The position numbers were made by a program, and so were the translations under genes. A stretch of 29,244 nucleotides of DNA from a virus: the IMG/VR virus record IMGVR_UViG_3300025131_000287, positions 1 through 29,244 of that record. One strand, 5' to 3'. Below the pieces are notes generated by a model, which was not told the DNA's origin, did not search any database, and was given only the letters and a program-made list of their open reading frames with translations. Below are positions 1 to 25,071 of this stretch, one piece after another. Each line of letters opens with the position of its first letter. The first letter of the stretch is position 1.

Positions 1-45
1 ACGACAGTCTGACCTCTTGTCCTTCACCAAGTCACCGACTTTCAC
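1..45 (-). CDS. VGDLV-family small protein, N-terminal fragment (cut by window edge)
   Basis: Fifteen codons are visible, from a GTG start at 45, reading MKVGDLVKDKRSDCR and running off the left edge. The start overlaps the TGA of the upstream family gene by 14 nt, and the Shine-Dalgarno GGAGGT lies inside the last codons of that gene. This is the same junction that links the array genes at 5.5-7.9 kb, so the array family continues beyond the window. The function is unknown; the family looks like a small SH3-like beta barrel (inference). Confidence 0.8.
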   Translation of the reverse strand, partial: MKVGDLVKDKRSDCR

Positions 46-57
46 TGATAACCTCCA
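32..57 (-). repeat. Array junction repeat J1
   Basis: A 26-bp word that encodes, on the minus strand, the end EVISESR-stop of the 32..199 gene, a GGAGGT Shine-Dalgarno and, one frame shifted, the GTG start and MKVG of the next gene. It is identical to the copy at 5845-5870 and differs by one base from that at 5694-5719, more than 5 kb away. Confidence 0.9.
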
Positions 58-199
58 AGTCATAATCACGAACACGATAGCCCATCATCCCGTCTGCCCA
101 CAAAATATTAAACATACCCGCCGATTCCCACACTCGTTTAACCAGTATTCCTCGACGGTAAAACCCAGACTTTGTTTTTACCAAATCACCGACTTTCAC
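32..199 (-). CDS. VGDLV-family small protein (55 aa)
   Basis: Reads MKVGDLVKTKSGFYRRG at the N-terminus and DYDLEVISESR at the C-terminus. The pattern (charged N-terminal strand, Gly-Ile-Val strand, central strand with Trp-Ala-Asp-Gly, conserved tail) matches the tandem array at 5.5-7.9 kb. The start is GTG, overlapping the TGA of the upstream lipoprotein gene by 4 nt, so it is the second gene of a short unit driven by the promoter at 609-637. Its function is not known. Related short proteins are common in phage genomes and are probably SH3-like barrels (inference). Confidence 0.85.
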   Translation of the reverse strand: MKVGDLVKTKSGFYRRGILVKRVWESAGMFNILWADGMMGYRVRDYDLEVISESR

Positions 200-1179: not shown

Positions 1180-2421
1180 TTAGGACTCCATATCTTTTTT
1201 TGGTATCGCGATGATTCTCTCATTAGTCGCGAAGTAAGGACGATTAGCATAATATTCAGTGGTTATCCACATCCTCTGAGACTTTGAAACCACAGGTTTT
1301 GGAGCACACATATCTGTCAAGATGATGTGGCCATCAAACTTGTGCTCGTTGACCCACTTTGTTGGAGCATCGAAGCATGTGCCACCACACGAGACTCGCT
1401 CCCACTTGCGGCGTTCACCTTTTTTCCAGACAAACACCTTGTCTTCTACCACTGCGGTATCGAAAGGCACCACGGTGAATTCAGCTATCGAGGATAGCTT
1501 GTTCAACTCAGAGAAGAAAGTGGCTAACATATCGGCAGATACAGAACCAGATTGATCAATTGATATAGCCACTCTTGCCACCCTATCCGACTTTTTTCCA
1601 GAATGGATGTATGGGTATCTCTTGTTAATACGACGGATGCTGGACTTTCTGCTAGACTTTTGAGAAGTTTTGATGAAGTATCTCAAAACCTTTTTCCAGT
1701 CTATTGTGCTTCTAATGCCCCTCAGTATGTCCTCTCTACAGGAAGCTGAGACAGAGCCCCAACTGTTTGACTTCGCAGCTTCCTCTGCTGCTTTCTCGAT
1801 GATGCCCTTGAGTCTTTCACTGGCAATGTTACGCGATGCTTCTGATGCCTTGCCCCAACCGCCATGATCATCAAAGCTATCTATAGCCAATTCGCCTTCG
1901 CCTTCGCCCTGACTGCCTTCCTCGCCCTGTCCCTTGCCGGACTCCCCGTCTGGTGAGCCCTCTGGCAAAGATGGCATGTTTTTCATATACCACTCGGCAG
2001 ACTTGCCAGGTGGCGTATCTTCAAATGGGGTGCCGACTACACCTGGCTTTAGGCAACCTTCTGGCAGGTTTGACAAGTGTGAATTGATGGATAAATCAGT
2101 GGCAATATTCCACAGCTGTCTTTCCCGCTTGCCTCCACTAAGCACTTCTGGCGGGAGTCTATCAGTAACATGCAGAAAGACAATGTGATAAAGCTCGTGC
2201 TTGAGCACATCTTTCCTCTCTTCGTCAGTCAGTCCCGCAAAGAAAGAAGGGTTATACAGCATTTCAAACTGTGCTGAGTCGGGATTGACGCAGACACCTG
2301 CTGTGGGAATTCCAGTATGAGATCTTTTATCCACCCTCCTAGAGATTGCAGCGAAGAATGGCTCGTCCATCAGAAGACGAGCCATGTGCAAATTTAAATC
2401 AAACTGTTTTTCAATGTCCAT
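1180..2421 (-). CDS. VWA-like / DUF2201-type putative metallopeptidase, partner of MoxR
   Basis: A 413-aa protein with two recognisable parts. The N-terminal half has an HExxH zinc-peptidase-like motif (HELYH, residues 75-79) in the context of DUF2201 metallopeptidase-like proteins. A low-complexity Gly/Glu/Ser linker (about 150-180) follows. The C-terminal half is a von Willebrand A-like domain with a MIDAS start DQSGS (289-293), a Thr-containing second loop (GGTCFDAP) and DGHIILTD. Such proteins pair with MoxR-type AAA+ ATPases, and the next gene upstream is exactly that. The pair may act as a metal-dependent chaperone or insertase; the phage role is unknown. First gene after the promoter at 2452-2480. 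Confidence 0.85.
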   Translation of the reverse strand: MDIEKQFDLNLHMARLLMDEPFFAAISRRVDKRSHTGIPTAGVCVNPDSAQFEMLYNPSFFAGLTDEERKDVLKHELYHIVFLHVTDRLPPEVLSGGKRERQLWNIATDLSINSHLSNLPEGCLKPGVVGTPFEDTPPGKSAEWYMKNMPSLPEGSPDGESGKGQGEEGSQGEGEGELAIDSFDDHGGWGKASEASRNIASERLKGIIEKAAEEAAKSNSWGSVSASCREDILRGIRSTIDWKKVLRYFIKTSQKSSRKSSIRRINKRYPYIHSGKKSDRVARVAISIDQSGSVSADMLATFFSELNKLSSIAEFTVVPFDTAVVEDKVFVWKKGERRKWERVSCGGTCFDAPTKWVNEHKFDGHIILTDMCAPKPVVSKSQRMWITTEYYANRPYFATNERIIAIPKKDMES

Positions 2422-2451
2422 AATCTCACTCTCTTTTCAAAATGTGATAAC

Positions 2452-2480
2452 ATCTTATCAAACAAAAATCAGAAAGTCAA
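2452..2480 (-). promoter_or_regulatory. Sigma70-like promoter for the VWA gene
   Basis: Minus strand TTGACT (2480-2475), 17-bp spacer, TAAGAT (2457-2452). It begins just after the stop of the MoxR gene, so ATPase and VWA gene have separate promoters although adjacent. Confidence 0.7.
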
Positions 2481-2484
2481 GAAA

Positions 2485-3573
2485 TTATTTGCCTTCCTCT
2501 GATATATCCATATCCTCACCAGTGAGAATAGAGACGATGAAAGAACTCACTGACTTACCGTCAACCACTGCCTCGTGCATACCAATCGTATTGGCTAATT
2601 CATTGCCAACGCCACCTAACACTGTCCACAGCTTCATGGCGGCCTCAGATGGGAGTGATATAAAATATCGTGCCAAGTTGTTAATTTGTTCCTCTGGCAG
2701 CTTTTCTGCAAAAGATTTTACAGAATCGAACTTTTCAATGATAGCTGAGTGATCATTGATGCCGAAGTCTTTTGTCTTTTCAATCTTGCCCTTCACGAGA
2801 ATGTCTTCTACTGATACCTGCCTCTCATAGTTGGCAATGAAGTCATTAAAAGAAACAGCAGCTTCAAACCCAACAAAGGCACTAGTCAGGGAATACAGAG
2901 CAGGTGGCACCTCTTCAACATCTAGCATACCCGCCTTCGTAAGACAGTCGCTTAAACGCTCCCAAGAGCGGCGAGAAGGATAAACCTTGTTTGGCTCATA
3001 ATCATCCAGATGCTCCAAGTGGTTACGGTTGTGATTAACGAAGTCCCAGACAATGCTGTGAACCTTGCCCGTTGCCCAGGATAGCCAATCTTCGACAGAT
3101 GGCTCCACATCAAACACTGTCCAACGATCTAGCTCGGCAGGATCCATCTCACCTACCTGATATTGTTCGCCATGCTCGCCACCGTTGACGGCGGCAAACA
3201 CTAGCGTATCAGGGTGAAGGGTGTGGCCATTAAGCTTTCTGCTATCAGTAAGCTCAAAGATGCCTTGACGGACTTCCAAGGTAGCCCTATCGACTTCATC
3301 AAGAAACAGGATGACAGGCTCGTCACATGCGTTCTTGAACCAGTCAGGCGGGTTAAAGCATGTGCTATTGTCCTCGATAGAAGGAAGGCCAACTAGATCG
3401 CCCTCAGTCATTTGAGACGCACGACGTTCAACAATCGCGATTCCCATCTTTTCAGCATACTGGTACACAACCGTGGACTTGCCAATGCCATGCCTGCCCC
3501 TCAAAAGGACTGGCTTTCGCACGTCGGTTACGAATTTAACAATTTCCGAAAAGGTTTTAAAGTCAACTGCCAT
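2485..3573 (-). CDS. MoxR-family AAA+ ATPase (CobS-like)
   Basis: 362 aa. Walker A GRHGIGKST (26-34), Walker B VILFLDEVDRA (about 87-97), sensor Asn130 in FAAVN, and an Arg-finger candidate in ELDRW (Arg150). The order and the GEMDPAELDR stretch are typical of MoxR/CobS-type ATPases, which work as hexamers with a VWA-domain partner. The downstream gene encodes such a partner. Related ATPases are reported from T4-like marine phages, where their substrate is unknown. It has its own promoter at 3626-3654. Confidence 0.85.
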   Translation of the reverse strand: MAVDFKTFSEIVKFVTDVRKPVLLRGRHGIGKSTVVYQYAEKMGIAIVERRASQMTEGDLVGLPSIEDNSTCFNPPDWFKNACDEPVILFLDEVDRATLEVRQGIFELTDSRKLNGHTLHPDTLVFAAVNGGEHGEQYQVGEMDPAELDRWTVFDVEPSVEDWLSWATGKVHSIVWDFVNHNRNHLEHLDDYEPNKVYPSRRSWERLSDCLTKAGMLDVEEVPPALYSLTSAFVGFEAAVSFNDFIANYERQVSVEDILVKGKIEKTKDFGINDHSAIIEKFDSVKSFAEKLPEEQINNLARYFISLPSEAAMKLWTVLGGVGNELANTIGMHEAVVDGKSVSSFIVSILTGEDMDISEEGK

Positions 3574-4293: not shown

Positions 4294-4492
4294 AAATCTT
4301 CTCTTTCATTTCTTCTAAAACTTCAAGAATATCATTTCTCTCATATCCCCATATCTTAGGGGCAGAGCACTCTATCTTTTCCACCATTTCATTTATGATA
4401 GCAAGCACGTCATCTTTTGTCAAGATTTCGCTTCTTGCTTTCTTTTCCCCCTTCTCAGTTTCAGGGTGTAACTCAAATGGATCAATTGTCAT
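4283..4492 (-). CDS. Hypothetical acidic protein (69 aa)
   Basis: A charged, helical protein (ILTKDDVLAIINEMVEKIE, then ILEVLEEMKEKIYES), probably a coiled-coil or helical hairpin. It starts with ATG 4492 about 48 nt after the predicted transcription start of the promoter at 4547-4575 and overlaps the next gene by 11 nt. No family recognised. Confidence 0.6.
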   Translation of the reverse strand: MTIDPFELHPETEKGEKKARSEILTKDDVLAIINEMVEKIECSAPKIWGYERNDILEVLEEMKEKIYES

Positions 4493-4546: not shown

Positions 4547-4575
4547 ATTATCTCACTTTAAATTAAGAAAGTCAA
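4547..4575 (-). promoter_or_regulatory. Sigma70-like promoter for the 4492 gene
   Basis: Minus strand TTGACT (4575-4570), 17-bp spacer, GATAAT (4552-4547). Lies in the 116-bp gap between the lipoprotein and the 69-aa gene. Confidence 0.7.
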
Positions 4576-4608: not shown

Positions 4609-4941
4609 TTATCTTGTTCTTGCTGACGGGCAATAATAGCACATCCGTCGTGGGTGATAAGCACAAAAATATCCGTATTCCTCGTAATCTGCGCCGTACC
4701 AGACTCCTGGTTGTGGATAGCAGTCCAGCCACTCACCGTCGATAACTATATGTTCAGTCGGCTGTCTAGACATATATCTAGGACTCCAACTACAGACATG
4801 AAGACTTCGGCACTCACCCTGACTGTCGCATACCCACTCAGTGTGGTGATAATCATGATGTTTCGGATCGCAATCATCACTATCCTCGAAGTAGCACCCA
4901 CTAGTGCATAACACGATAGCTAACAAAATTAACCTCAACAT
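4609..4941 (-). CDS. Cys-rich putative lipoprotein (110 aa)
   Basis: Hydrophobic N-terminus MLRLILLAIVLCTSGC with a lipobox-like Cys16, followed by an acidic linker and a Cys-, Tyr- and His-rich body (CDPKHHDYHH, CYPQPGVWYGADYEEYG, MCYYCPS) that suggests disulfides in the periplasm. Start ATG 4941 overlaps the upstream VGDLV-family gene by 7 nt. It resembles in style, not in clear sequence, the lipoprotein at 15126-15425. Function unknown. Confidence 0.65.
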   Translation of the reverse strand: MLRLILLAIVLCTSGCYFEDSDDCDPKHHDYHHTEWVCDSQGECRSLHVCSWSPRYMSRQPTEHIVIDGEWLDCYPQPGVWYGADYEEYGYFCAYHPRRMCYYCPSARTR

Positions 4942-5135
4942 CGCGGGTTAACCCGCTTATATGTCATCTTGTCAACCATGCAAAGTGATGGGGAAGATGT
5001 ACCGCTCCACAATACCCGCATAGGGATTGATGGGGAATAACCCGTCTCATTGAAAATCGGAGCCTCCTTTGACACGACAATACCATGGTGTTTGTCGCTC
5101 AGTCTCATTATTAAATCGCCGATTCTGATGTCCAC
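4935..5135 (-). CDS. VGDLV-family small protein (66 aa)
   Basis: Reads MDIRIGDLIMRLSDKHHGIVV, the same N-terminal plan as the array genes. I chose GTG 5135 because GGAGGT lies seven bases upstream; a TTG at 5150 in the same frame would place the ribosome-binding site inside the gene. The start region overlaps the end of the 5111..5305 gene by 25 nt. It lacks the EVISESR tail (ends YKRVNPRC), so its 3' junction is not the array type. Confidence 0.75.
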   Translation of the reverse strand: MDIRIGDLIMRLSDKHHGIVVSKEAPIFNETGYSPSIPMRVLWSGTSSPSLCMVDKMTYKRVNPRC

Positions 5136-5305
5136 TTCTCTAACCTCCAATGTGGCTCACTAAAATTAAATTCTTGGCCCTTATGCAGTACCCTGAACAC
5201 TCTAGCATTATCTTTTTTCTCTATTTTCAAAATCACTGCCACTCCATAGCAGCAATCCGTATGTGGATTGTTGTCATATATCCTGACTTTGTCGCCTACT
5301 TTCAT
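5111..5305 (-). CDS. VGDLV-family small protein (64 aa)
   Basis: Reads MKVGDKVRIYDNNPHT and then GVAVILKIEKKDNARVFRVL, the barrel-like pattern of the family. A longer frame up to 5377 exists, but the promoter at 5336-5364 falls inside that extension and AGGAA precedes ATG 5305, so the short form is right. It is the first gene of a new unit; the end of the gene holds the GGAGGT of the next one. Confidence 0.8.
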   Translation of the reverse strand: MKVGDKVRIYDNNPHTDCCYGVAVILKIEKKDNARVFRVLHKGQEFNFSEPHWRLEKWTSESAI

Positions 5306-5335: not shown

Positions 5336-5364
5336 ATCATAACAAATGAATTTTAAAAAGTCAA
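5336..5364 (-). promoter_or_regulatory. Sigma70-like promoter for the 5305 gene
   Basis: Minus strand TTGACT (5364-5359), 17-bp spacer, TATGAT (5341-5336). Predicted transcription start near 5329, 24 nt before the ATG. It marks the end of the large array unit. Confidence 0.75.
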
Positions 5365-5373
5365 GTGTTTTTT

Positions 5374-5541
5374 TCAAGCTATTGTTTTTTTTGAGAATTT
5401 GATGTTTTCACCGTACTCTTGCTGCAATTCCTTCTTTTTTTTCTCACATACATGATCAAGTGCATAGATGTGCTGCTTTGCGCCACTGCCGATACGGTAT
5501 GATAAATGATATATCGTTGTAGTATTAGTCTTGTTTGCCAC
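5374..5541 (-). CDS. Small basic hypothetical protein (55 aa) at an array junction
   Basis: GTG start at 5541, reading MANKTNTTTIYHLSYRIGSG and ending in a Lys-rich helix (CEKKKKELQQ). It is not related to its neighbours, yet its GTG sits where the junction start of the array sits: GGAGGTGCTGA-GTG, within the LEVLS tail codons of the upstream gene. So the upstream half of the junction word is kept and the downstream half replaced. A competing 80-aa frame over the same DNA has no ribosome-binding site. Stop TGA at 5374-5376. Confidence 0.65.
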   Translation of the reverse strand: MANKTNTTTIYHLSYRIGSGAKQHIYALDHVCEKKKKELQQEYGENIKFSKKTIA

Positions 5542-5707
5542 TCAGCACCTCCAATTGATGAAGTCCCCACTCGTTCCGATCTCCCGAGAACCAGTGTACT
5601 ATCGCTGCCTCCATTGGCCAATGAAGGCGTTCAACCACAATACCCATAGATTTCCTGTATTTCTTCCAGCCTTTGTCTTTTGGTATTACTAAGCTACCGA
5701 CTTTCAC
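5525..5707 (-). CDS. VGDLV-family small protein (60 aa)
   Basis: From GTG 5707: MKVGSLVIPKDKGWKKYRKS, GIVVERLHWP, tail LHQLEVLSGKQD. The start lies in the conserved junction, overlapping the TAG of the upstream gene by 14 nt, with GGAGGT in the upstream coding sequence. A longer frame from 5752 would read through the upstream gene and is not used. The tail keeps LEVLS but then diverges (GKQD), because the next gene at this junction is not a family member. Confidence 0.8.
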   Translation of the reverse strand: MKVGSLVIPKDKGWKKYRKSMGIVVERLHWPMEAAIVHWFSGDRNEWGLHQLEVLSGKQD

Positions 5708-5719
5708 TGATAACCTCCA
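5694..5719 (-). repeat. Array junction repeat J2
   Basis: Same 26-bp word as J1 with one change, giving TAG instead of TGA as the upstream stop and MKVGS instead of MKVGD downstream. It links the 5694..5858 and 5525..5707 genes. Confidence 0.9.
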
Positions 5720-5858
5720 CGCACTGTTCATTCCACCACTCTTTGTTTCCAAGATTCGTTAACACCCAAATGTCAGGGCACCCAACCGAAAGGATAACGC
5801 CAATGGAAGCAACCAGCGTGTATTCAGATTTGTATTTCACCATATCACCGACTTTCAC
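5694..5858 (-). CDS. VGDLV-family small protein (54 aa)
   Basis: MKVGDMVKYKSEYT at the start, CPDIWVLTNLGNKEWWNE in the middle and CVEVISESR at the end. It is clearly the sister of the 6860..7066 gene (MKVGDLVKYKSEYI, HPDIWVWTNLGAQERWNE, YVEVISESR), with a shorter loop after the first strand. Two or more other family genes lie between them, so one was copied and moved within the array. GTG start, 14-nt overlap with the gene upstream. Confidence 0.85.
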   Translation of the reverse strand: MKVGDMVKYKSEYTLVASIGVILSVGCPDIWVLTNLGNKEWWNEQCVEVISESR

Positions 5859-5870
5859 TGATAACCTCCA
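5845..5870 (-). repeat. Array junction repeat J3
   Basis: Identical over 26 bp to J1 (32-57). Encodes EVISESR-stop, GGAGGT and the GTG start of the 5858 gene. Confidence 0.9.
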
Positions 5871-6018
5871 ACGCTTCCAGATCTCCCAAGAGATGCTTTT
5901 GTATTCTGGGTTTTTCTCCAGTCCAGCAAACTTCTATCATAGAAGGCATCGGAGGTACACAGACTACTATGCCCAACTCTCCCCATAGTTTACCCTTCAC
6001 CAAGTCACCTACTTTCAC
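5845..6018 (-). CDS. VGDLV-family small protein (57 aa)
   Basis: MKVGDLVKGKLWGELGIVV, then IEVCWTGEKPRIQKHL and tail LEALEVISESR. It has the family order of strands: opening VGDLV, a GIVV strand, a strand with Trp-x-Gly, and the conserved tail. GTG start at 6018 in the junction word, with a 14-nt overlap. Below the 60-codon limit that many gene finders use, so it is easily missed. Function unknown. Confidence 0.85.
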   Translation of the reverse strand: MKVGDLVKGKLWGELGIVVCVPPMPSMIEVCWTGEKPRIQKHLLGDLEALEVISESR

Positions 6019-6030
6019 TGATTAACTCCA
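6005..6030 (-). repeat. Array junction repeat J4
   Basis: Junction word with a few changes: the upstream tail is ELISESR and the Shine-Dalgarno is weakened to GGAGTT. Still TGA/GTG in the 14-nt overlap. Confidence 0.85.
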
Positions 6031-6193
6031 GGGCATGATAGCTCCATACACAGTGGCCACTCGTAGTCATAACATGGATGTCTGGGTTCTCAAAGGGGCA
6101 TTTCTCGTAACTCGGACTCCCGCCGTGGTAGCCGATTCCCGTTACAATACCTACAACCCCACGACCGGACAGCACTAAATCACCGACTTTCAC
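6005..6193 (-). CDS. VGDLV-family small protein (62 aa)
   Basis: MKVGDLVLSGRGVVGIVTGI, CPFENPDIHVMTTSGHCVW, tail YHALELISESR. The NPDIHV/W segment followed by T-x-x-G is shared with the 5858 and 7066 genes (DIWV-x-TNLG), so the three form a subfamily. GTG start 6193, 14-nt overlap with the previous gene. Confidence 0.85.
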   Translation of the reverse strand: MKVGDLVLSGRGVVGIVTGIGYHGGSPSYEKCPFENPDIHVMTTSGHCVWSYHALELISESR

Positions 6194-6205
6194 TGATTAC
6201 CTCAC
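6180..6205 (-). repeat. Array junction repeat J5
   Basis: Junction word with GAGGTAATC in place of GAGGTTATC; the peptide EVISESR and the GTG start are unchanged. Confidence 0.85.
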
Positions 6206-6359
6206 ATTGGCTAGTCACCACACAGCGAGTAATACCGTCTTCTGTATCGTAAATCACCAATGTCCCACCTTCCAGATTATTAGATAACACGACACCATGA
6301 CTGTCGTCGAAGCGATACATGATATAATCGCCAGGTTTAATATAGTCACTGTATTTCAT
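6180..6359 (-). CDS. VGDLV-like small protein (59 aa), PGD subtype
   Basis: Starts MKYSDYIKPGDYIMYRFDDS, so the opening is PGDYI rather than VGDLV, then GVVLSNNLEGGTLVIYDTE and tail CEVISESR. The middle and tail align with the 7138..7359 gene (GIVLYDNAEGGTYKIYDME, CEVLSEAR), a second duplicated pair in the array. Its ATG overlaps the upstream stop by 4 nt (ATGA), unlike the 14-nt overlap of most members. Missed by a 60-codon cutoff. Confidence 0.8.
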   Translation of the reverse strand: MKYSDYIKPGDYIMYRFDDSHGVVLSNNLEGGTLVIYDTEDGITRCVVTSQCEVISESR

Positions 6360-6520
6360 AAAGGCACCACGACTTCCTTGTTATACCATAGAAACATGCT
6401 ATGATTATGCGAGTAAATTCGCCAGTATGGGCGATTCTGTGGGCACTCACCCGTAATGATTCCCCACACTTGCCTGCCTAGGAATGTCCTATCAGTCTTT
6501 ACTAGGTCGCCGATTTTCAT
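6356..6520 (-). CDS. VGDLV-family small protein (54 aa)
   Basis: MKIGDLVKTDRTFLGRQVWG, IITGECPQNRPYWRIYSHN, ends EVVVPL. The first seven codons use GGC for Gly, and this removes the stop that the junction normally gives the upstream gene. It lacks the EVISESR tail; its stop overlaps the next ATG as ATGA. ATG start at 6520. Confidence 0.8.
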   Translation of the reverse strand: MKIGDLVKTDRTFLGRQVWGIITGECPQNRPYWRIYSHNHSMFLWYNKEVVVPL

Positions 6521-6677
6521 TTGTTAACACTTTCAAGGCACTAGGCCTGACACTAAGTAACCTGTAAACTGGGGATTGAATATCTACTCTGATTCCACCG
6601 TATTCGTTACGATACATTTTTGTCACAACATAAATCGCTTGATCAAGTTTCCTTCTTACCAGACTACCGACTTTCAT
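6492..6677 (-). CDS. VGDLV-family small protein (61 aa) with extended tail
   Basis: From ATG 6677: MKVGSLVRRKLDQAIYVVTK, tail KVLTNENRRPSKD. The tail NEN-R corresponds to the usual SESR, but the stop is gone (CGG CGA instead of CGG TGA) and translation continues for five residues inside the next gene, a 29-nt overlap. Longer frames from 6704 run through the upstream gene and were not used. Confidence 0.8.
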   Translation of the reverse strand: MKVGSLVRRKLDQAIYVVTKMYRNEYGGIRVDIQSPVYRLLSVRPSALKVLTNENRRPSKD

Positions 6678-6689
6678 TGACAATCTCGC
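6664..6689 (-). repeat. Array junction repeat J6
   Basis: Divergent junction word: upstream tail EIVNESR with TAG, downstream ATG start with MKVGS. The Shine-Dalgarno is poor (CGAGAT). Confidence 0.75.
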
Positions 6690-6873
6690 AACAAATTGTG
6701 ACAAACCACCTAATCCCCTTATCGGCTGTCAATATTTTTAATGTACCACATGGCTCGTTGACAGCCAGAACAACACCAACTTGATCAACTGGCCTTCCTA
6801 ACTTGACACGGTGGATGTAGTTGGTGTGGCCACGAGGGGCATGATTGTACATCACTAGGTCACCGACTTTCAC
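6664..6873 (-). CDS. VGDLV-family small protein (69 aa)
   Basis: MKVGDLVMYNHAPRGHTNYI, then VGVVLAVNEPCGTLKILTAD and tail CCEIVNESR. The GVVLAV strand, a turn and a strand ending in KILTAD follow the family plan, with a longer first loop. GTG start 6873 in junction J7. Confidence 0.85.
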   Translation of the reverse strand: MKVGDLVMYNHAPRGHTNYIHRVKLGRPVDQVGVVLAVNEPCGTLKILTADKGIRWFVTICCEIVNESR

Positions 6874-6885
6874 TTATCACCTCCA
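6860..6885 (-). repeat. Array junction repeat J7
   Basis: Junction word of a second subtype: GAGGTGATAAGT instead of GAGGTTATCAGT. Both spell E-V-I-S. Identical to J8 over 26 bp. Confidence 0.9.
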
Positions 6886-7066
6886 CGTACTGCTCATTCC
6901 ACCGCTCTTGCGCTCCAAGGTTCGTCCACACCCAAATATCAGGATGCAAAGCACAGCTTTGATCAATGTGTGTAAGCTCGCCGCTGTATCCAACACCAAC
7001 AATCACGCCAGTGGAATTAAAACCTATATATTCAGACTTATATTTTACCAGGTCACCGACTTTCAC
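6860..7066 (-). CDS. VGDLV-family small protein (68 aa)
   Basis: MKVGDLVKYKSEYIGFNSTG, VIVGVGYSGELTHIDQ, HPDIWVWTNLGAQERWNE, tail YVEVISESR. It is the longer sister of the 5694..5858 gene, differing mainly by an insertion after the second strand. GTG start 7066, 14-nt overlap. Confidence 0.85.
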   Translation of the reverse strand: MKVGDLVKYKSEYIGFNSTGVIVGVGYSGELTHIDQSCALHPDIWVWTNLGAQERWNEQYVEVISESR

Positions 7067-7078
7067 TTATCACCTCCA
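7053..7078 (-). repeat. Array junction repeat J8
   Basis: Identical to J7 over 26 bp, in the GAGGTGATAAGT subtype. It links the 7053..7205 and 6860..7066 genes. Confidence 0.9.
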
Positions 7079-7205
7079 CGAAATCCAGGTGTTCCCAATA
7101 CCACCTTCCCTTATCGGCATAAAAAATGCGACAATTGTCAAATATTACTTCGATAACAATGCCGGTTCCGAACTGATGAGTTCGCACCAAGTCGCCGAGC
7201 CTCAC
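7053..7205 (-). CDS. VGDLV-family small protein (50 aa)
   Basis: MRLGDLVRTHQFGTGIVIEV, IFDNCRIFYADKGRWYWE, tail FVEVISESR. The shortest complete member, close to a minimal barrel. GTG start 7205. Its Gly codon at position 4 is GGC, which turns the TGA of the upstream gene into CGA. Too short for a 60-codon cutoff. Confidence 0.85.
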   Translation of the reverse strand: MRLGDLVRTHQFGTGIVIEVIFDNCRIFYADKGRWYWEHLDFVEVISESR

Positions 7206-7359
7206 TTAGCACCTCGCATTCTTTTCTGAGTACCCAACATGTCTCTCCTCTTTCCATATCGTAAATCTTGTATGTGCCACCTTCAGCATTATCATAGAGC
7301 ACAATGCCTATCGTAGTGGTGTAGGTGCCACGGAATAATGCTAAATCACCGACTTTCAT
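7138..7359 (-). CDS. VGDLV-family small protein with read-through tail (73 aa)
   Basis: MKVGDLALFRGTYTTTIGIV, then YDNAEGGTYKIYDMERGETC and CEVLSEAR, after which the usual stop is missing. The frame continues for 18 more residues (RLGANSSVRNRHCYRSNI) inside the next gene, a 68-nt overlap. I used ATG 7359, which overlaps the upstream stop as ATGA; ATG 7365 would add two residues. The tail is best seen as an accident of the synonymous change in the next gene. Confidence 0.8.
   Translation of the reverse strand: MKVGDLALFRGTYTTTIGIVLYDNAEGGTYKIYDMERGETCWVLRKECEVLSEARRLGANSSVRNRHCYRSNI
7192..7217 (-). repeat. Array junction repeat J9 (stop lost)
   Basis: Junction word with CGGCGA in place of CGGTGA. 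The downstream frame keeps L-G-D because GGC and GGT both encode Gly; the upstream frame loses its stop. Confidence 0.85.
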
Positions 7360-7586
7360 TTCCATATTGTCACGATATGTCCGAACTCTCTGTCAAACAA
7401 CTCAACCAAACCTTTATAACCACCCATCATCATCACCTTTCTAATTGCCGTGATTCTTTGTTGTGAATAACCGAGCTTGCGGCCCAGAACATCGACTTGC
7501 TTCATTAAAAAGAAGACATTGCCTTCTGGGCCATTAAGATCTATTTCCATTCCTCTGATTGGTTTCTCTTCTCTTGAACGAATCAT
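7356..7586 (-). CDS. Hypothetical protein (76 aa), not of the VGDLV family
   Basis: A helical protein (VFFLMKQVDVLGRKLGYSQQ, ITAIRKVMMMGGYKGLVEL, FDREFGHIVTIWK) inserted in the array. The pattern of an LGYS-like turn, a basic helix, a GGYK turn and a final aromatic strand recalls short conserved phage proteins of unknown role. Its ATG 7586 overlaps the stop of a vestigial MKVGDT mini-ORF (7583-7603), and its own stop overlaps the next ATG. So it sits cleanly between two array junctions. Confidence 0.7.
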   Translation of the reverse strand: MIRSREEKPIRGMEIDLNGPEGNVFFLMKQVDVLGRKLGYSQQRITAIRKVMMMGGYKGLVELFDREFGHIVTIWK

Positions 7587-7603
7587 GTATCACCCACCTT
7601 CAC
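7583..7603 (-). pseudogene. Vestigial array start, mini-ORF MKVGDT-stop
   Basis: A complete junction word (7590-7615) gives a GTG start and MKVGDT, then TGA, which overlaps the ATG of the unrelated 7356..7586 gene (ATGA). It looks like the beginning of a family gene whose body was replaced by another gene. It may still help ribosomes reach the next start. Confidence 0.65.
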
Positions 7604-7615
7604 TGAGAACTTCCA
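7590..7615 (-). repeat. Array junction repeat J10
   Basis: Divergent copy: upstream tail EVLSEGG, downstream MKVGD followed at once by a stop. Shine-Dalgarno GGAAGT. Confidence 0.8.
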
Positions 7616-7760
7616 AGTTGGTTCTATGACAAAACTCAATCTTGCCTTCGACTAGCACATCATAGTAACCATCTTGTGCACAATTGAGAACCGCAGCTAT
7701 TAACCCAAGACGCTTGATTTTCCAAGGATCCAACCACCTTACCAAGTCACCTACCTTCAC
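7590..7760 (-). CDS. VGDLV-family small protein (56 aa)
   Basis: MKVGDLVRWLDPWKIKRLGL, IAAVLNCAQDGYYDVLVEGK, tail TNLEVLSEGG. It follows the family plan with a Leu-Gly-Leu-Ile strand in place of GIV. GTG start 7760, 14-nt overlap with the first array gene. Absent from lists with a 60-codon cutoff. Confidence 0.85.
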   Translation of the reverse strand: MKVGDLVRWLDPWKIKRLGLIAAVLNCAQDGYYDVLVEGKIEFCHRTNLEVLSEGG

Positions 7761-7772
7761 TTAGCACCTCCA
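7747..7772 (-). repeat. Array junction repeat J11
   Basis: Junction word between the first two array genes; tail EVLSEGR, GGAGGT and GTG start kept, several third-position changes. Confidence 0.85.
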
Positions 7773-7944
7773 ACTCCATGTGGCTTAGACATTCGTGAGT
7801 GTACGGTATTGTTCTACTCATCTCTGCATAATAAATATGCACTGAGAGAGCACCCTCGTAGGTTACTATTCCGGTGTAGACATCGTGTCCAAAGTCCACA
7901 TCCACCAAGTCTCCAACCTTCACCACCAAGTCTCCAACTTTCAT
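7747..7944 (-). CDS. VGDLV-family protein with doubled start word (65 aa)
   Basis: Starts MKVGDLVVKVGDLVDVDFG: the first seven codons are present twice, as near-perfect 21-bp direct repeats. The first copy has ATG with GGGAAAG upstream, the second begins with GTG 7923. The rest is ordinary (VYTGIVTYEG, LEVLSEGR). It is the promoter-proximal gene of the array unit, so the doubling is what joining a promoter-bearing start to an internal start would leave. Its ATG overlaps the upstream stop by 4 nt. Confidence 0.85.
   Translation of the reverse strand: MKVGDLVVKVGDLVDVDFGHDVYTGIVTYEGALSVHIYYAEMSRTIPYTHECLSHMELEVLSEGR
7903..7944 (-). repeat. Tandem 21-bp duplication of the start word
   Basis: Two consecutive copies of the seven codons for (M/V)KVGDLV, the first opened by ATG and the second by GTG, differing at two positions. 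Confidence 0.9.
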
Positions 7945-8180
7945 GTTGTCTTTCCCTTTTCTTTTTTGTCGATTGGATAATATAATACCATATTTTTTTT
8001 GATATTGTCAAGGATTATTTTTTCAGTAACAGTGTAAATATGGCTTATCATAACCGAAGTGTCTGCACAACTAGGACTAGTCAGATTAAACCTCCATGTT
8101 TTGTCCTCCAACCTTTCCAGCAGGACTCCCGTTGCTGAATTCTTGAGGTTGAAAAACATATCCCCTGGCGATAACTCCAT
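7941..8180 (-). CDS. Hypothetical SH3-like protein (79 aa)
   Basis: Reads MELSPGDMFFNLKNSATGVL, then LEDKTWRFNLTS. SPGDMFF in place of VGDLV and the following GVLLERL strand suggest a distant member of the array family. ATG 8180 has AAGGAAGAAC upstream. The 3' part also holds the promoter of the array (7982-8011), so the last 20 residues (Lys- and Tyr-rich) double as promoter DNA. Confidence 0.65.
   Translation of the reverse strand: MELSPGDMFFNLKNSATGVLLERLEDKTWRFNLTSPSCADTSVMISHIYTVTEKIILDNIKKNMVLYYPIDKKEKGKTT
7982..8011 (-). promoter_or_regulatory. Sigma70-like promoter of the VGDLV array
   Basis: Minus strand TTGACA (8011-8006), 18-bp spacer, TATTAT (7987-7982), inside the 3' end of the 7941..8180 gene. 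Predicted start near 7975, 31 nt before the first array gene. The only clear promoter found for the 2.6-kb array. Confidence 0.7.
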
Positions 8181-9649: not shown

Positions 9650-9678
9650 ATCTTAACATCCTAACCAACAAATGTCAA
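9650..9678 (-). promoter_or_regulatory. Sigma70-like promoter for the 9614 gene
   Basis: Minus strand TTGACA (9678-9673), 17-bp spacer, TAAGAT (9655-9650), in the 89-bp gap downstream of the 9704..9913 gene. Confidence 0.7.
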
Positions 9679-9913: not shown

Positions 9914-9927
9914 GCACTATATAGTGC
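9914..9927. other. Perfect 14-bp palindrome between two genes
   Basis: GCACTATATAGTGC, spanning the stop of the hemolysin III family gene and ending next to the ATG of the 9913 gene. It could be an operator or a hairpin that hides the next start; it has no U tract. Confidence 0.4.
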
Positions 9928-10492
9928 CGACAATATGGATTGAGGACCCAATCAAAACAAATATATGCCAAATCGTGTGATACCATTCCTTCTCGTTGTC
10001 CTTCACATAAAATGCCAGGCCTACGAGATATGCAGCACAGCCAACTAAAAAATAATACAACAGTGTGCAAGTGTTTTTTTCGACAAGCGACAGAATCACC
10101 GTCAAACACGCGGCACCAGAGAGAACGCACAGCGGCACCAGATATTTCTCAAAAGACTCTTTGCCATAACTTGCCACAATGTACTGAACACTGACAGTGC
10201 CCAGGAATGCCAGCAAAAGGCAACTCCAAAAACCCCCACCCATAAGGATAGCATACAATATTGATGTTCCGTATATCGACAACTGGATAGAAATAATATC
10301 CAGCATCCTCATAACATCTTTTATTGACTCTTTTTCTGCTGCATGATACAACACTGAAAAGGAGTATGTTAGCAACAGCACTGCACTCAACGCTCTGGTT
10401 ATTATTGATCCATCCCAAAGCATTGCTAGGCAGACGCCAATGCCGATGGCATGAGTTATCGAATTCCACTTCTCTTCTGAGGAATTACGCAT
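9917..10492 (-). CDS. Hemolysin III / PAQR family membrane protein
   Basis: 191 aa with about seven hydrophobic segments. Family marks are visible: N-terminal EKWNSITHAIG, the first metal ligand in YSFSVLYH (His50), LDIISI with Asp65 where the family has LDH, and HTIWH (His172 and His176) before the last helix. The family (YqfA/HlyIII, related to adiponectin receptors) consists of integral membrane proteins, some thought to be zinc-dependent hydrolases; direct hemolytic action is doubtful in most. In a phage it may alter the host membrane. It follows the methyltransferase gene by an 85-bp gap. Confidence 0.85.
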   Translation of the reverse strand: MRNSSEEKWNSITHAIGIGVCLAMLWDGSIITRALSAVLLLTYSFSVLYHAAEKESIKDVMRMLDIISIQLSIYGTSILYAILMGGGFWSCLLLAFLGTVSVQYIVASYGKESFEKYLVPLCVLSGAACLTVILSLVEKNTCTLLYYFLVGCAAYLVGLAFYVKDNEKEWYHTIWHIFVLIGSSIHIVGTI

Positions 10493-14385: not shown

Positions 14386-14835
14386 CTACTCTTGAATCGA
14401 GACAACCTCGATTTCGAAGTTGAGATCCTTTCCTGCCATCGGGTGATTAAAGTCGATAACGACAACATCATCCTTGACTTCGTTAATGGTGCCGACAACA
14501 GGTTGGCCAGCCTCATTCGATCCCTGTACGACTTGCCCAGTGATAAATTCAAAATCATTTGGGAAATTCAACTTTGGAACTTCCGAAATCGCGTCAGGGT
14601 TTGTTGAGCCGTATGCCTCATCTGGCGTCAAGCTCACCTTCTTCTTTTCTCCCACTGCCATGCCGACGACGGCATTGTTGAATCCAGGAATCATCATTCC
14701 AGAACCAACCTGAAAGTCGATAGGCTCGTCTCTGGTATACGAACTGTCAAAGACAGTCCCATCGTTCAAGGTTCCCGTATAGTGCACCTGTACCGTGCTA
14801 CCATCCTCAACTGTATTTGTGTTGTTTGTGCTCAC
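14386..14835 (-). CDS. FKBP-type peptidyl-prolyl isomerase (SlyD-like)
   Basis: 149 aa. FKBP marks: VQVHYTGTLNDGTVFDSSY at the start, IPGFNNAVVGMAVGEKKK, PDEAYGSTNP, then an inserted flap (about 65-125) and FNHPMAGKDLNFEIEVVSI, typical of SlyD/FkpB-type isomerases with an insert-in-flap chaperone domain. The His-rich metal-binding tail of E. coli SlyD is absent. It catalyses proline cis-trans isomerisation and may assist folding in the cytoplasm (no signal peptide). GTG 14835 follows AGGAGAAAAA. Confidence 0.9.
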   Translation of the reverse strand: MSTNNTNTVEDGSTVQVHYTGTLNDGTVFDSSYTRDEPIDFQVGSGMMIPGFNNAVVGMAVGEKKKVSLTPDEAYGSTNPDAISEVPKLNFPNDFEFITGQVVQGSNEAGQPVVGTINEVKDDVVVIDFNHPMAGKDLNFEIEVVSIQE

Positions 14836-16283: not shown

Positions 16284-17111
16284 TCACTTGACTAAGATAT
16301 TTTCAAAGCCTGACTTTCCACCGACAAGCCAATCCCTATCGACATTGCCGCGTATACCATCAACCTCTGCGGAACCAGTCCACTGCCACACTGTCCACTC
16401 TTTCCAAGTACCAAGCCTGTCTTTCTTGATTCCTTTTTTGTGAGCGGATCTTGCATATGCCGCATGCCACAATGTGTATGTATCGAGTATGCTAGTGTTA
16501 TTATACAGCCCATACTTCACCATGTTCCCACCAGTGTAGATGATTGGACGGACACCGAACAAGGTTTCTGATTCCCTGAGAAACTCCACCACCCAATTGT
16601 GGATAGAGTCTGCACTGTGATCACCAGCAGTTTCAAAGTCCAAGACTGGACGCAAGTCGCCACACTCGACATTGTTGTGCTTTGCGAAATTCTTGACTTC
16701 CTTGTAAGGATCCTTGTGCAAGTCAGGACGAGCAAAATGATAACCGCCAACAGGGATACCAGCTGCACGGCAATCTAGAATATTCTGGGTGGCACGTGGA
16801 TCTTGATAGTTGTTGCCCTCCGTCATCTTGATCCAGCAAAACTCTGCCTTTCCAGACTCCCTGACTGTGTCCCAGTCAATGTCTCCTTGGTGGTGGCTGA
16901 TGTCTATACCTGGGTATATTTCAATTCCCAAGCTAGCCCTAGTCGCAGGGCCGCTCCTACCGTCCACTGCTAGTTTATTATCGGATTGATAATCCTTGAG
17001 CCTTTCCTCTGTTCTCTTACCGAATTTTCCGTCAGGGTATGCTCCCAAAGACTTCTGCAAACGCTTAACCTCTTGGCCGCGGCACCCAACTTCATGAATC
17101 CAACTACTCAT
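16284..17111 (-). CDS. Endolysin: peptidoglycan-binding domain plus GH25 lysozyme
   Basis: 275 aa. Residues 1-62 form a PG-binding_1 domain ([32 protein letters not shown]). Residues 65-270 are a GH25 muramidase: [13 protein letters not shown] with Asp70, [16 protein letters not shown] with the catalytic Asp158/Glu160 pair, and [20 protein letters not shown]. It cuts the MurNAc-GlcNAc bond of the cell wall at lysis. No signal peptide, so a holin is needed. ATG 17111 overlaps the dnaK stop by 8 nt, with GGAG in the last dnaK codons. A frame to 17150 runs into dnaK and is not used. Confidence 0.93.
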
Positions 17112-19005
17112 TTGCACACTCCTCGAAATCGGCGTCGATGATATCATCATCGTCCGGCTTAGCAGGACCCTCTTGGGCTGCCGTCTCTGGCTTGCTTGCT
17201 GCTGCCGTGGCGGCGTACATCTCTTTCGAGACGCCCTGCACTAGCTCAGTCAAGCTGGCCAGCTCCTTCGCTATAATATCCGGTGTGGAGTTCATTGACA
17301 ACTTTGCACGGACAGAAGCCACAGCTTCCTCTATGAGCTTTTTAGATTCAGCTGATATTTTATCTTCATTTTCCTTAATCAGCTTTTCTGCCTGGAAAGC
17401 TAGTGACTCAAGCTTGTTCTTGTTCTCCACTTCCTCTCGACGTTTCTTGTCGTCTACTTCGTTCGACTTCGCCTCCTGAACCATCCTTTCAATATCAGCT
17501 GACGAAAGTGTCCCGCTGCCTTGAATTGTGATGTGCTGCTCTTTCCCTGTTGCTTTGTCCTTTGCAGAAACACTAACGATCCCGTTCGCGTCAATATCAA
17601 ACTTTACTTCAACCTGTGGAACGCCTCTAGGTGCCGGTGGGATTCCGTCCAGCTTGAACACACCAATCTGTTTGTTGTCATTCGCGAACTCTCGCTCGCC
17701 CTGCAGGACACGGACATCTACCGCTGGCTGCATATCTGCGGCAGTGGTGAATACCTGTGACTTAGAGCAAGGAATGGTTGTGTTCCTCTCTATCAGGCGT
17801 GTCATAACACCACCCATAGTTTCAAGCCCCAGAGACAGCGGCGTTACATCAAGCAACAAGACATCATTCACCTCCCCGCTGAACACGCCGCCTTGGACGG
17901 CAGCACCTAGGGCGACAACCTCGTCAGGATTAACGGCAGAACTCGCGCTCTTTCCAAAGAATCCTTCGACGGCGGCACGAACAACTGGAATCCTGGTGGA
18001 TCCGCCAACCAACAAGATTTCGTTAATCTCCACCTTGTCGACTCCAGCATCAGATAACGCTCTCTCTACTGGGCCCATCGTCCTCGCAACGACACCATCT
18101 ATCATCTGCTCGAAGTTAGCACGAGTCAATAACATCTGCAAGTGCTTCGGGCCAGAAGCGTCAGCGGTGATGAACGGCAAATTAATATCTGTCTGTTGTG
18201 TGCTTGATAACTCTATTTTTGCTTTCTCGGCAGCTTCCTTGAGTCGCTGAGCAACCATGGCATCTTTCGACAAGTCTATGCTGCTCTCTTTCTTGAATGT
18301 TTCAACTATCCAGTCTATGACTATTTTGTCGATGTCATCACCGCCTAAATGGGTATCACCGTTAGTGCTTAGCACCTCTACAACATCATCTGCAATTTCA
18401 AGAACAGAGACATCAAAGGTGCCACCTCCCAGATCATATACCAATATCTTTCTTTCGCCTCCCTTATCCATTCCATATGCTAAGGCAGCTGCCGTTGGCT
18501 CGTTAATTATCCTCTTGACTTCCAGCCCTGCAATCTTTCCAGCATCTCTGGTTGCCTGTCTCTGAGCATCATTGAAATAGGCAGGTACCGTTATAACAGC
18601 CTCCTTGACATCCTCCCCCAGATACGACTCGGCGGCAGCTTTCAACTTAAGCAGCACCTGAGCACTGATTTCTTGTGGAGCATGTGCCTTGCCTCCCGCG
18701 ATTATTTCACACATTCCAGATTTTGATTTCTGAACCTTGTAAGGCATGCTCTGTGCCTCTTTCGACACTTCGTCGTACATCATCCCCACGAACCTTTTAG
18801 CAGAATACACTGTGTTCTGGGGGTTTGTGACTGCCTGCCTTCTAGCTGGGTTACCTACCAGCCTTTCGCCGTCATCGGCAAAGCCAATCACGGAAGGTGT
18901 TGTTCTAGATCCCTCTTCGTTCGTGATTATCCTAGGCTCGCCGCCTTCCATAACAGAAACAACTGAATTCGTTGTCCCCAAATCAATTCCAATTACTATA
19001 GTCAT
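17104..19005 (-). CDS. dnaK: Hsp70 chaperone DnaK
   Basis: A full-length DnaK of 633 aa. Nucleotide-binding marks: [33 protein letters not shown] and [20 protein letters not shown]; interdomain linker [12 protein letters not shown]; then the substrate-binding domain and a tail [12 protein letters not shown] like that of bacterial DnaK. All expected elements are present, so it should be an active ATP-driven chaperone. No dnaJ or grpE is in the window, so it would use the host's. It has its own sigma70 promoter and is coupled to the endolysin gene. Probably acquired from a bacterium. Confidence 0.97.
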
Positions 19006-23481: not shown

Positions 23482-25071
23482 CTAATTAGTTTCAGTGTTT
23501 TTATTAGACCCAATAATAGCATGATTAGTTGTCAAAAGAATGCCAGCAACAGAAGCTGCATTACGAAGAGCACATCTGGTAACTTTGACTGGGTCAATGA
23601 TGCCAGTCTTGAACAAATCCACAAGTTCGCCCGTTGCAAAGTTGACACCGAACCCCGCAGGAGCATCGTTCATTCTTTCAAGAACCTCGTCTTCTGGCAT
23701 ACCGCAATTGATTGCCATCTGTCTCACTGGAGACTCCAAGGCGAGCTTGACGATTTCAACACCGATGTTCTGCGCATCGTTTGATGTATCCACCTGCAGA
23801 TCCCTTGCCACGGAAAGCAGGGCAGAGCCGCCGCCAGGGACAACACCTTCAAGCTGTGCTGCTCGAACAGCTTCCAATGCATCTTCAATGCGATGCTTCT
23901 TTTCTATCATCTCTATCTCGGTTGCTGCACCTACTCGAATGACGGCGACACCAGATGCCAACCTGGTGACTCTCTCCTGCAGCCTTTCAGCCTCGTGAAG
24001 AGAATCAGTTTGTTCAATCTCACTCTTGAGGGCATCAATCCTTTTCTCAACTTCATCGAAGTCGCCATTGCCACCGACGATAGTTGTCAACCCCTTGTTG
24101 ATATCAACAGTCTTGGCGGAACCAAAGTCAGTCAACTGAACCTCTTTCAAGTTGTGGCCAGCTGATTTGCAGAAGTGCTTCGCTCCAAGGGATTGTGCCA
24201 AGTCGCTCATGATTCCTCTACGTTCTTCCCCATACCTGGGGGCTTTGACAGCGGCGACTTTCATTGTGCCTCTCATCGAGTTCATGATGAGTGCAGCCAA
24301 GGCTTGCCCTTCGATATCATCCGCGACAATAACAAAAGGGCGATTCTCCCTCGCTGCTATCTCGAGAGACGGAAGAATCTGCTCAACAGTTTCAAGCTTC
24401 TCGTCAGTGATCAAGAAAAGCGGATCCTCGTACCTCACTGTCCCCTTTCGTTCGTTCGTTATGAATGCCGTTGCGGCATATCCAGAGTCGAAGCGGAAAC
24501 CCTCCATCAAATCCAAACTTGTGTCGACTGAGCGAGCCTCTTCTATCGTTATCGAACCGTCCTTGCCGACTCTATCGACTGCCAGTGCCACAAGATTGCC
24601 AATATCAATATCCCCATTGGCAGAAATAGTCGCGATATGTGCAACATCAGACTCGCTCTGAATTGGACTAGCCATTGCCACCAACTTATCGTTGACGACT
24701 GCAACAGCCTTGTCTATCCCCCTCTTTATCTCCACTGCAGAAGTGTGATCTTCAATGTTCTCAACTGCTGCTGCGAATATTGCACGTGCTAGAACTGTTG
24801 ATGTGGTTGTGCCATCTCCAGCGTCGGCGTTCGTCTTTGCCGATGCCTGCTTCACAATCTGTGCCCCGACATTTGCAAACTCATCCTCAAGATGAACAAA
24901 CTTCGCAACGGTGACACCATCTTTGGTTATCATTGGACGCTTGCCCTGTTCATGAATGATAACATTCCTCCCCTTTGGACCCAGGGTTGAAGCAACGTTG
25001 TCTGCCAAGACATTGATGCCATGCATTAGACTTTCCCTCAGTGAGGATTTCGAATCATATTTTTTGGACAT
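23482..25071 (-). CDS. groL: GroEL chaperonin, Hsp60 (lacking GGM tail)
   Basis: 529 aa, compared with about 548 in E. coli. Nucleotide-site marks TLGPKGRNVI, ITKDGVTVAK, AGDGTTTSTVLARA and VVPGGGSALL are intact, including the Asp of RIEDAL. The apical domain is present but diverged (ENRPFVIVADDIEGQALAAL, then VKAPRYGEERRGIMSDLA). The usual Gly-Gly-Met tail is replaced by HAIIGSNKNTETN. No co-chaperonin groES is seen; in T4 the phage gp31 replaces it, so a partner may be elsewhere or the host's. Some phage GroELs fold capsid proteins. Own consensus promoter. Confidence 0.97.
   Translation of the reverse strand: MSKKYDSKSSLRESLMHGINVLADNVASTLGPKGRNVIIHEQGKRPMITKDGVTVAKFVHLEDEFANVGAQIVKQASAKTNADAGDGTTTSTVLARAIFAAAVENIEDHTSAVEIKRGIDKAVAVVNDKLVAMASPIQSESDVAHIATISANGDIDIGNLVALAVDRVGKDGSITIEEARSVDTSLDLMEGFRFDSGYAATAFITNERKGTVRYEDPLFLITDEKLETVEQILPSLEIAARENRPFVIVADDIEGQALAALIMNSMRGTMKVAAVKAPRYGEERRGIMSDLAQSLGAKHFCKSAGHNLKEVQLTDFGSAKTVDINKGLTTIVGGNGDFDEVEKRIDALKSEIEQTDSLHEAERLQERVTRLASGVAVIRVGAATEIEMIEKKHRIEDALEAVRAAQLEGVVPGGGSALLSVARDLQVDTSNDAQNIGVEIVKLALESPVRQMAINCGMPEDEVLERMNDAPAGFGVNFATGELVDLFKTGIIDPVKVTRCALRNAASVAGILLTTNHAIIGSNKNTETN

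Follow-up and report, generated by a model that had tools for sequence, protein, structure and literature searches.

A dual-coding junction word as the likely exchange site of small-gene cassettes in a lineage of large T4-related phages

The DNA analysed here, virus record IMGVR_UViG_3300025131_000287 of 29,244 nt (the window), is a fragment of a genome and has on the minus strand, between 7944 and 5525, a run of 13 small genes of the VGDLV family together with one unrelated gene. At eight of the 12 steps from one family gene to the next the two genes overlap by exactly 14 nt, and a single DNA word, GGAGGTTATCAGTGAAAGTCGGTGA, ends one gene and begins the other in a second frame. We interpret the array, with a probability of about 0.82, as an exchangeable gene-cassette system of a T4-related phage lineage, in which homologous recombination would take place at this word. 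Comparison with related loci, on which this reading rests, shows a shared word, a shuffled gene order, gain and loss of whole genes, a switch of homology within the word, transfer between diverged phages and purifying selection on the gene bodies.

A preliminary description, made from the letters of the window alone, had counted twelve complete genes in 2.4 kb with nearly identical junctions throughout. The array is real, but its content is the one given above, and twelve uniform junctions were an overstatement: the exact overlaps lie at 7747/7760, 7053/7066, 6860/6873, 6664/6677, 6180/6193, 6005/6018, 5845/5858 and 5694/5707, whereas the remaining joints are overlaps of 4, 29 or 68 nt, or have the unrelated gene in between. 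That the bodies differ strongly is borne out by a mean column identity of 20% in the family alignment. The family genes and word copies of the window, all on the minus strand (-), are as follows.

7747-7923, open from 7944 (-): family gene 1; an in-frame duplication of 21 bp (MKVGDLV-VKVGDLV), possibly a recombination scar, lies at 7902-7943
7590-7760 (-): family gene 2, group 18
7356-7586 (-): unrelated gene of 76 aa within the array, no Pfam match
7138-7365 (-): family gene 3 (MEMKVGDLA), overlapping the next gene by 68 nt, not 14
7053-7205 (-): family gene 4
6860-7066 (-): family gene 5, predicted five-strand SH3-like barrel
6664-6873 (-): family gene 6, with an NESR tail because the next gene has an ATG start
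6492-6677 (-): family gene 7
6356-6520 (-): family gene 8
6180-6359 (-): family gene 9, variant N-terminus MKYSDYIKPGDYI
6005-6193 (-): family gene 10, group 3, predicted five-strand SH3-like barrel
5845-6018 (-): family gene 11
5694-5858 (-): family gene 12
5525-5707 (-): family gene 13, end of the run, C-terminus LEVLSGKQD without SESR tail
5111-5305 and 4935-5135 (-): two more family genes downstream, overlapping by 25 nt, behind a promoter-like site at 5364-5336
32-199 (-): family gene at the other end of the window (MKVGDLVKTKSGFYRR...EVISESR), with an exact word copy (32-57) at its end; the contig stops within the gene downstream of it
7747-7772 (-): word copy, genes 1/2
7053-7078 (-): word copy, genes 4/5
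6860-6885 (-): word copy, genes 5/6
6664-6689 (-): word copy, genes 6/7, ATG start
6180-6205 (-): word copy, genes 9/10
6005-6030 (-): word copy, genes 10/11
5845-5870 (-): word copy, genes 11/12, same sequence as 32-57
5694-5719 (-): word copy, genes 12/13

Within the overlap, GAG-GTT-ATC-AGT-GAA-AGT-CGG-TGA is read in one frame as the end of a gene (EVISESR-stop) and GTG-AAA-GTC-GGT-GA in the other as the start of the following gene (MKVGD), whose ribosome site, GGAGG, lies within the LEV codons of the upstream gene. Taken as a whole, the word joins the last strand of one predicted SH3-like barrel to the first strand of the following barrel and also holds the ribosome site, a stop and a start. 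The preliminary description had recognised this dual-frame arrangement, which is seen at all eight exact overlaps, and had rightly noted that the word at one end of the window is identical to a copy within the array (GGAGGTTATCAGTGAAAGTCGGTGA is exact at both 32-56 and 5845-5869). Seven copies of GGAGGTTATCAGTGAAAGTCGGTGA with at most 3 mismatches are present in the window, all on the minus strand, and none in 100 dinucleotide shuffles.

A degenerate search of IMG/VR with the word matched at least 118 stretches, and a search with the AAA ATPase encoded at 2485-3573 found 60 related loci; the comparison set comprised about 155 IMG/VR loci after contained copies had been dropped, and 1,077 distinct family proteins were gathered with one regular expression. 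Across these loci 434 distinct joints of 14 nt are formed by the word; overlaps of 4 nt come next in frequency (59). Counted from the start codon, information content climbs at -12 and drops after +13; most of this conservation is explained by stacked function, namely barrel strands, ribosome site, stop and start. Strict homogenisation of the entire word was rejected for -12 to -1, where the free wobble position -5 is nearly unconserved. The tail of the upstream gene tracks the start codon of the downstream one, with SESR before GTG (229) and NESR before ATG (84), and a tail of this type occurs in just 34 of 423 genes that lack a downstream VGD start. SESR as a functional C-terminal tag was likewise rejected, because the tail depends on the start of the next gene.

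Unrelated genes docked upstream of a VGDLV gene, which include MazG-like, GIY-YIG-like and Clp-protease-like ones (judged by eye from the sequences), also end in ESR or EDR. In each of its two other frames the start sequence RTGAAAGTCGGTGA includes a TGA (RTGA and GGTGA), and this explains why overlaps of 14 nt (527) and 4 nt (116) dominate when all upstream frames are scanned. Glycine is encoded by GGT, the codon that creates the second stop, in 75% of MKVGD starts with a 4-nt overlap and in 71% of solo ones, as against 29% in the bodies; that GGT persists where it is not required by a 14-nt overlap points either to an origin from word joints or to a kept ability to dock. No in-frame fusion of two barrels was found.

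Gene order among relatives had been set beforehand as a test of the cassette idea, and order proved to be unconserved. At word joints the next gene is the same in 3/48 pairs with 70-85% body identity, 3/30 with 85-98% and 45/46 with 98-100%, compared with 91/126, 25/34 and 57/57 for control genes of at least 120 aa; pooled over 70-98% identity, the neighbour is kept in 6 of 78 word-joint pairs versus 116 of 160 large-gene pairs. Near-identical contigs gain or lose whole cassettes with the switches inside the word. Loci L015 and L016, which are 99.5-100% identical, differ by exactly one gene, both ends of which carry the 20-nt sequence ATGAAAGTCGGTGATTTGGT; L159 has three genes that are missing from L158, with 17 nt shared at the ends; L051 and L116 show two single-gene differences, and L132/L134 and L133/L134 one unit in each pair. 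The word stands at the edge of clean indels by rule in 17 of 22 cases (two more have a word variant by eye), and in 8 of the 11 clean family indels the joined ends share 17-36 nt of it.

A transfer is indicated by one gene of the three-gene insert in L159, which matches L178 from word to word at 136 of 156 nt (87%), the AAA ATPases of these two loci being 58% identical; the similarity of the small protein exceeds that of the AAA ATPase by over 10 points in 13 of 64 pairs. Genes of the window likewise have orthologues with other neighbours. The body of 6492-6677 is 89% identical to a gene at 7771 of L126, where the upstream gene differs; 6005-6193 has eight homologues, followed by different genes, the best four being 61-74% identical (74% to L126, 4843); and relatives of 7590-7760 with 55-65% body identity adjoin other genes. 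Orthologous bodies are under purifying selection (median dN/dS 0.16, 174 pairs).

Homology edges within arrays fall between -15 and +25 of the start in 28/37 and 25/39 cases, where 20% is expected. To map the switch, pairs sharing the upstream gene and pairs sharing the downstream gene were compared with background, weighted by gene group. At the start codon agreement is 0.81 in same-upstream pairs, 0.37 in same-downstream pairs and 0.56 in the background; at +17 the values are 0.48, 0.78 and 0.45. Same-upstream pairs exceed background through +8 and not from +17 on, same-downstream pairs from +8 onward and not at the start codon. This pattern points to crossovers mostly within the first 17 nt, or six codons (MKVGDL), after the start codon, and with crossovers between 0 and +17 a cassette would carry the ribosome site and start of the next gene, not its own. 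The earlier claim that recombination moves whole genes with their translation signals thus needs correction in this one respect, while its core agrees with the gain and loss of genes and with the switch in the word; breakpoints had been expected within the word, and homology does switch there, mainly at 0 to +17, with the reservation that non-family genes also show a preference for starts.

Both parents carry the word, and its presence at the two joined ends alike is what is particular here. A RecA/UvsX gene is present in all 16 large relatives (158-293 kb), and a tyrosine integrase (PF00589) was found in none of them but in 14/14 control genomes, in a search that did not extend to serine recombinases or host enzymes; this combination makes homologous recombination at the word likely. 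T4-type replication is rich in recombination. Together with shared ends of 17-36 nt and the spread of the switch zone, this favours homologous strand exchange or annealing over other readings.

Under the proposed mechanism, each cassette would encode one small SH3-like (KOW/Tudor-type) barrel with a different surface; a near-uniform segment, RTGAAAGTCGGTGATTTGGT, codes for the start and first strand (MKVGDLV) in every gene. Recombination between two copies of this segment, in one genome or between co-infecting phages, would remove, add or replace whole genes in register. The exchanged unit would run from the MKVGDL codons of one gene into the first codons of the following one and would include the latter's ribosome site and start codon. 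Every product would thus retain an intact barrel, stop and start, and with a TGA in each alternative frame the start sequence could dock behind unrelated genes with a 4- or 14-nt overlap. The exchange, its enzyme and rate as we infer them, would proceed by UvsX-type strand exchange or annealing, and duplication surely contributes as one source of cassettes. Translation would presumably be coupled across the overlaps, and early expression would start from the following site:

7982-8011 (-): sigma-70-like promoter with extended -10 (TTGACA-18-TATTAT, TG before the -10) just upstream of the array, a consensus match only

This site has 11 of 12 consensus matches and is among the two best of 26 promoter-like sites, a total modestly above that in shuffles (mean 19.5). 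Inside 7944-5525 the coding strand has no strong promoter, the single match being one of 9/12 at 6873-6844, and neither of the two terminator-like hairpins in this interval is located at a joint. Other sites of the form TTGAC-17-TAnnAT, each with a TG ahead of the -10, lie on the coding strand at 2452-2480, 4395-4423, 4547-4575, 5336-5364 and 9650-9678 and resemble an early-promoter set.

Several observations weigh against the cassette interpretation. Breakpoints of non-family genes are also found near starts (18/39 and 20/42, versus 7.4% expected), which means that selection against broken genes contributes and that the preference for boundaries is not specific to the word. Family joints other than word joints are labile as well, with the same neighbour in 3 of 16 pairs at 85-98% identity. 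The small family genes and the control genes have different molecular clocks, and the neighbour control is therefore imperfectly matched. Moreover, the comparison sequences are all metagenomic assemblies, used here without read support, crossing over is deduced from comparison, and for the window no individual event could be located, its genes having orthologues with other neighbours and nothing more.

The enrichment of breakpoints near starts in non-family genes would be expected if illegitimate recombination took place anywhere and selection retained intact genes, the word being a bystander; clean indels elsewhere also share ends of 6-35 nt, although some of these are word variants. Selection alone, however, needs no sequence identity between the partners, and joins at family starts usually share a long stretch of the word, in both parents, which makes this explanation unlikely. 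On the other hand, the array could have arisen by tandem duplication and divergence in place through unequal crossing over, with the word kept only by its overlapping coding and translation signals. Functional stacking does cover most conserved columns, with position -5 nearly free; the window holds diverged paralogues (5694-5858 and 6860-7066); and pairs of 98-100% identity retain the same neighbour. Nevertheless, the neighbour test largely refutes duplication in place: in most pairs orthologous bodies stand beside different genes on both sides, homology ends inside the word, near-identical contigs differ by whole genes, and one gene is common to phages with far-apart backbones. We consider this origin quite improbable.

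A short conserved site at each cassette border and the movement of whole cassettes are also what an integron-like system would produce, in which a phage or host integrase or invertase uses the word as attachment site. The lack of PF00589 in the 16 large relatives, within the limits of that search, and a switch point that is spread over about 0 to +17 instead of being fixed render site-specific recombination very improbable. Finally, short repeats might have led assemblers to fuse unrelated pieces, given that the data are all metagenome contigs and the word is repeated. Usual assembly k-mers exceed a 26-bp repeat, the same pattern recurs in many independent samples, and the bodies diverge under purifying selection in their differing contexts; we give an artefact hardly any credence, and prefer homologous recombination at the word.

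Recombination at conserved borders is already known, from lambdoid phages and from the promoter early stem-loops (PeSLs) of T4-type phages. According to PMC3029335, which cites Susskind and Botstein 1978 and Clark et al. 2001, homologous recombination at short conserved boundary sequences produces mosaics in lambdoid phages, and in the arrays, too, shared sequence is found at both parental ends of a join; but the lambdoid boundaries part single-copy functional modules, whereas the arrays use a single border over and over within one genome, each time between members of the same protein family. PeSLs (Arbiol et al. 2010; Comeau et al. 2014, as cited in PMC4503421) are likewise repeated short signals between small genes of T4-related phages that supply homology for modular shuffling. 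They are non-coding, a promoter and stem-loop between transcription units, whereas the repeat of the arrays lies in coding sequence and contains translation signals: small genes are shuffled at a repeated sequence here as well, but the joints have no strong promoter or stem-loop, and no early promoter with stem-loop stands between the genes. In L066 (2162-2378, versus L106) and L169 (5228-5243, versus L170) whole-unit indels break at promoter-like sequence (TTGAC region) and not at the word, and a PeSL-like second shuffling route may coexist with the word in the same phages.

Integron cassettes are also exchangeable arrays of small genes behind a promoter, but the arrays differ in that no tyrosine integrase was found (16 large relatives), the switch is spread over 0 to +17 with no apparent fixed crossover base, and start signals are carried along. 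New would be a border that is read in two frames, forms the seam of a protein fold, brings its own ribosome site, stop and start, and recurs along an array of one family. None was found in the open-access literature searched, where neither a paper on such arrays nor one mentioning MKVGDLV turned up; this absence is weak evidence.

Structure prediction, which the preliminary description had proposed as a check, was carried out for two members: the AlphaFold2 models of 6005-6193 and 6860-7066 are five-strand SH3-like barrels (pLDDT 83.7 and 84.8) and support an SH3-like fold of KOW/Tudor class. The first strand (6-9) and the last (55-59, or 61-65) are exactly the parts coded by the word, so that the word would span the barrel's seam, and exchange would affect all that lies between these strands. 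Top rows in Foldseek and VIA are Tudor, KOW, CAP-Gly and PsaE, with a middling Z of 6.8-7.7 for one model; no specific relative is significant (none at E <=0.001), and the fold class is supported, nothing more. The family profile matches Spt5 KOW weakly (E 4e-4), Pfam KOW (PF00467) has a weak match in 1 of 69 members (best E 0.002), and searches of PHROGs, NCBIfam and Pfam gave scattered weak matches only, with no convincing Pfam family. The predicted fold is thus that of KOW, Tudor and CAP-Gly domains (NusG/Spt5, the UvrD Tudor domain), but without convincing Pfam membership. A precedent in kind is MotB of phage T4, which is made early, has a predicted KOW or SH3-like domain at its N-terminus, binds DNA and alters H-NS binding to it (PMC7827196); it is a two-domain protein of a single gene, in contrast to the single barrels in arrays, and is likened to them by fold, not by sequence. 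A shared SH3-like fold says nothing on function. Many of the best viral structure matches in BFVD (A0A516M778, A0A516MBH7, A0A516LC12 and neighbours) fall into two narrow accession blocks, which may represent other viruses with many SH3-like paralogues.

Each of the 16 large relatives has 7-25 family matches, mostly in one or a few clusters, and in 15 of them a T4-type gp23 major capsid gene scores over the cut-off, in a region beyond that covered by the window fragment. The nearest cultured capsids are those of Flavobacterium, Microcystis and Rhodothermus phages, a distant relationship only. Searched with the family profile, Flavobacterium phage immuto, Microcystis phage Mel-JY01, Rhodothermus phage RM378 and Synechococcus phage S-SSM7 gave no hit, and an uncultured huge phage gave a single weak one; the start word is missing from all five. 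Isolate phages likewise had no match when the array was used as a blastn query or three family proteins as tblastn queries. The presence of gp23 in the relatives and the absence of the family from the cultured phages tested mark the arrays, on genome comparison, as a feature of an uncultured lineage of large T4-related phages. Loci L191-L197 are word-bearing records of metagenome-assembled genomes (MAGs) of unrelated taxa, one labelled as a WOR-3 chromosome, and L197 (7302-7862 in CP070664.1) has word-joined family genes. These records are probably phage DNA in genome bins; as the contigs come from unrelated taxa and are phage-like, we claim no host.

The AAA ATPase adjoins a DUF2201 metallopeptidase/VWA protein (1180-3573, -), and the pair accompanies arrays in related loci; related ATPases of cultured phages are distant, with less than 30% identity among the matches listed. 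The fragment also encodes a chaperone set that is unusual for a phage, and a membrane protein:

17104-19005 (-): Hsp70/DnaK
23482-25071 (-): chaperonin (Cpn60)
26331-27044 (-): Clp protease
14386-14835 (-): FKBP-type isomerase
9917-10492 (-): HlyIII-family membrane protein

The position behind a host-type promoter, the small size, the fold and the variability would fit early binders of host proteins or nucleic acids, and we tentatively suggest, as a possibility somewhat short of even odds, that the family provides variable binders of this kind in host takeover or counter-defence. More speculative, and rather doubtful at present, is the wider idea of recombinase-free cassettes whose exchange site is the coding seam of a fold, so that barrels of whatever surface could be swapped, stacked and placed behind any gene, and which form a population-wide, fast-changing library of binders against host defences or machinery. 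To our knowledge, the borders of most shuffled small phage genes are unrecognisable. Here an explicit, dual-coding border that is present in many copies per genome would make a mechanism of modular evolution testable at the level of single bases, and would explain how small proteins can be swapped without loss of reading frame or expression. The arrays also point to a large unnamed family of small proteins of predicted SH3-like fold that probably act on the host; if these truly are counter-defence or takeover proteins, the arrays would constitute a natural, ready-made screening library.

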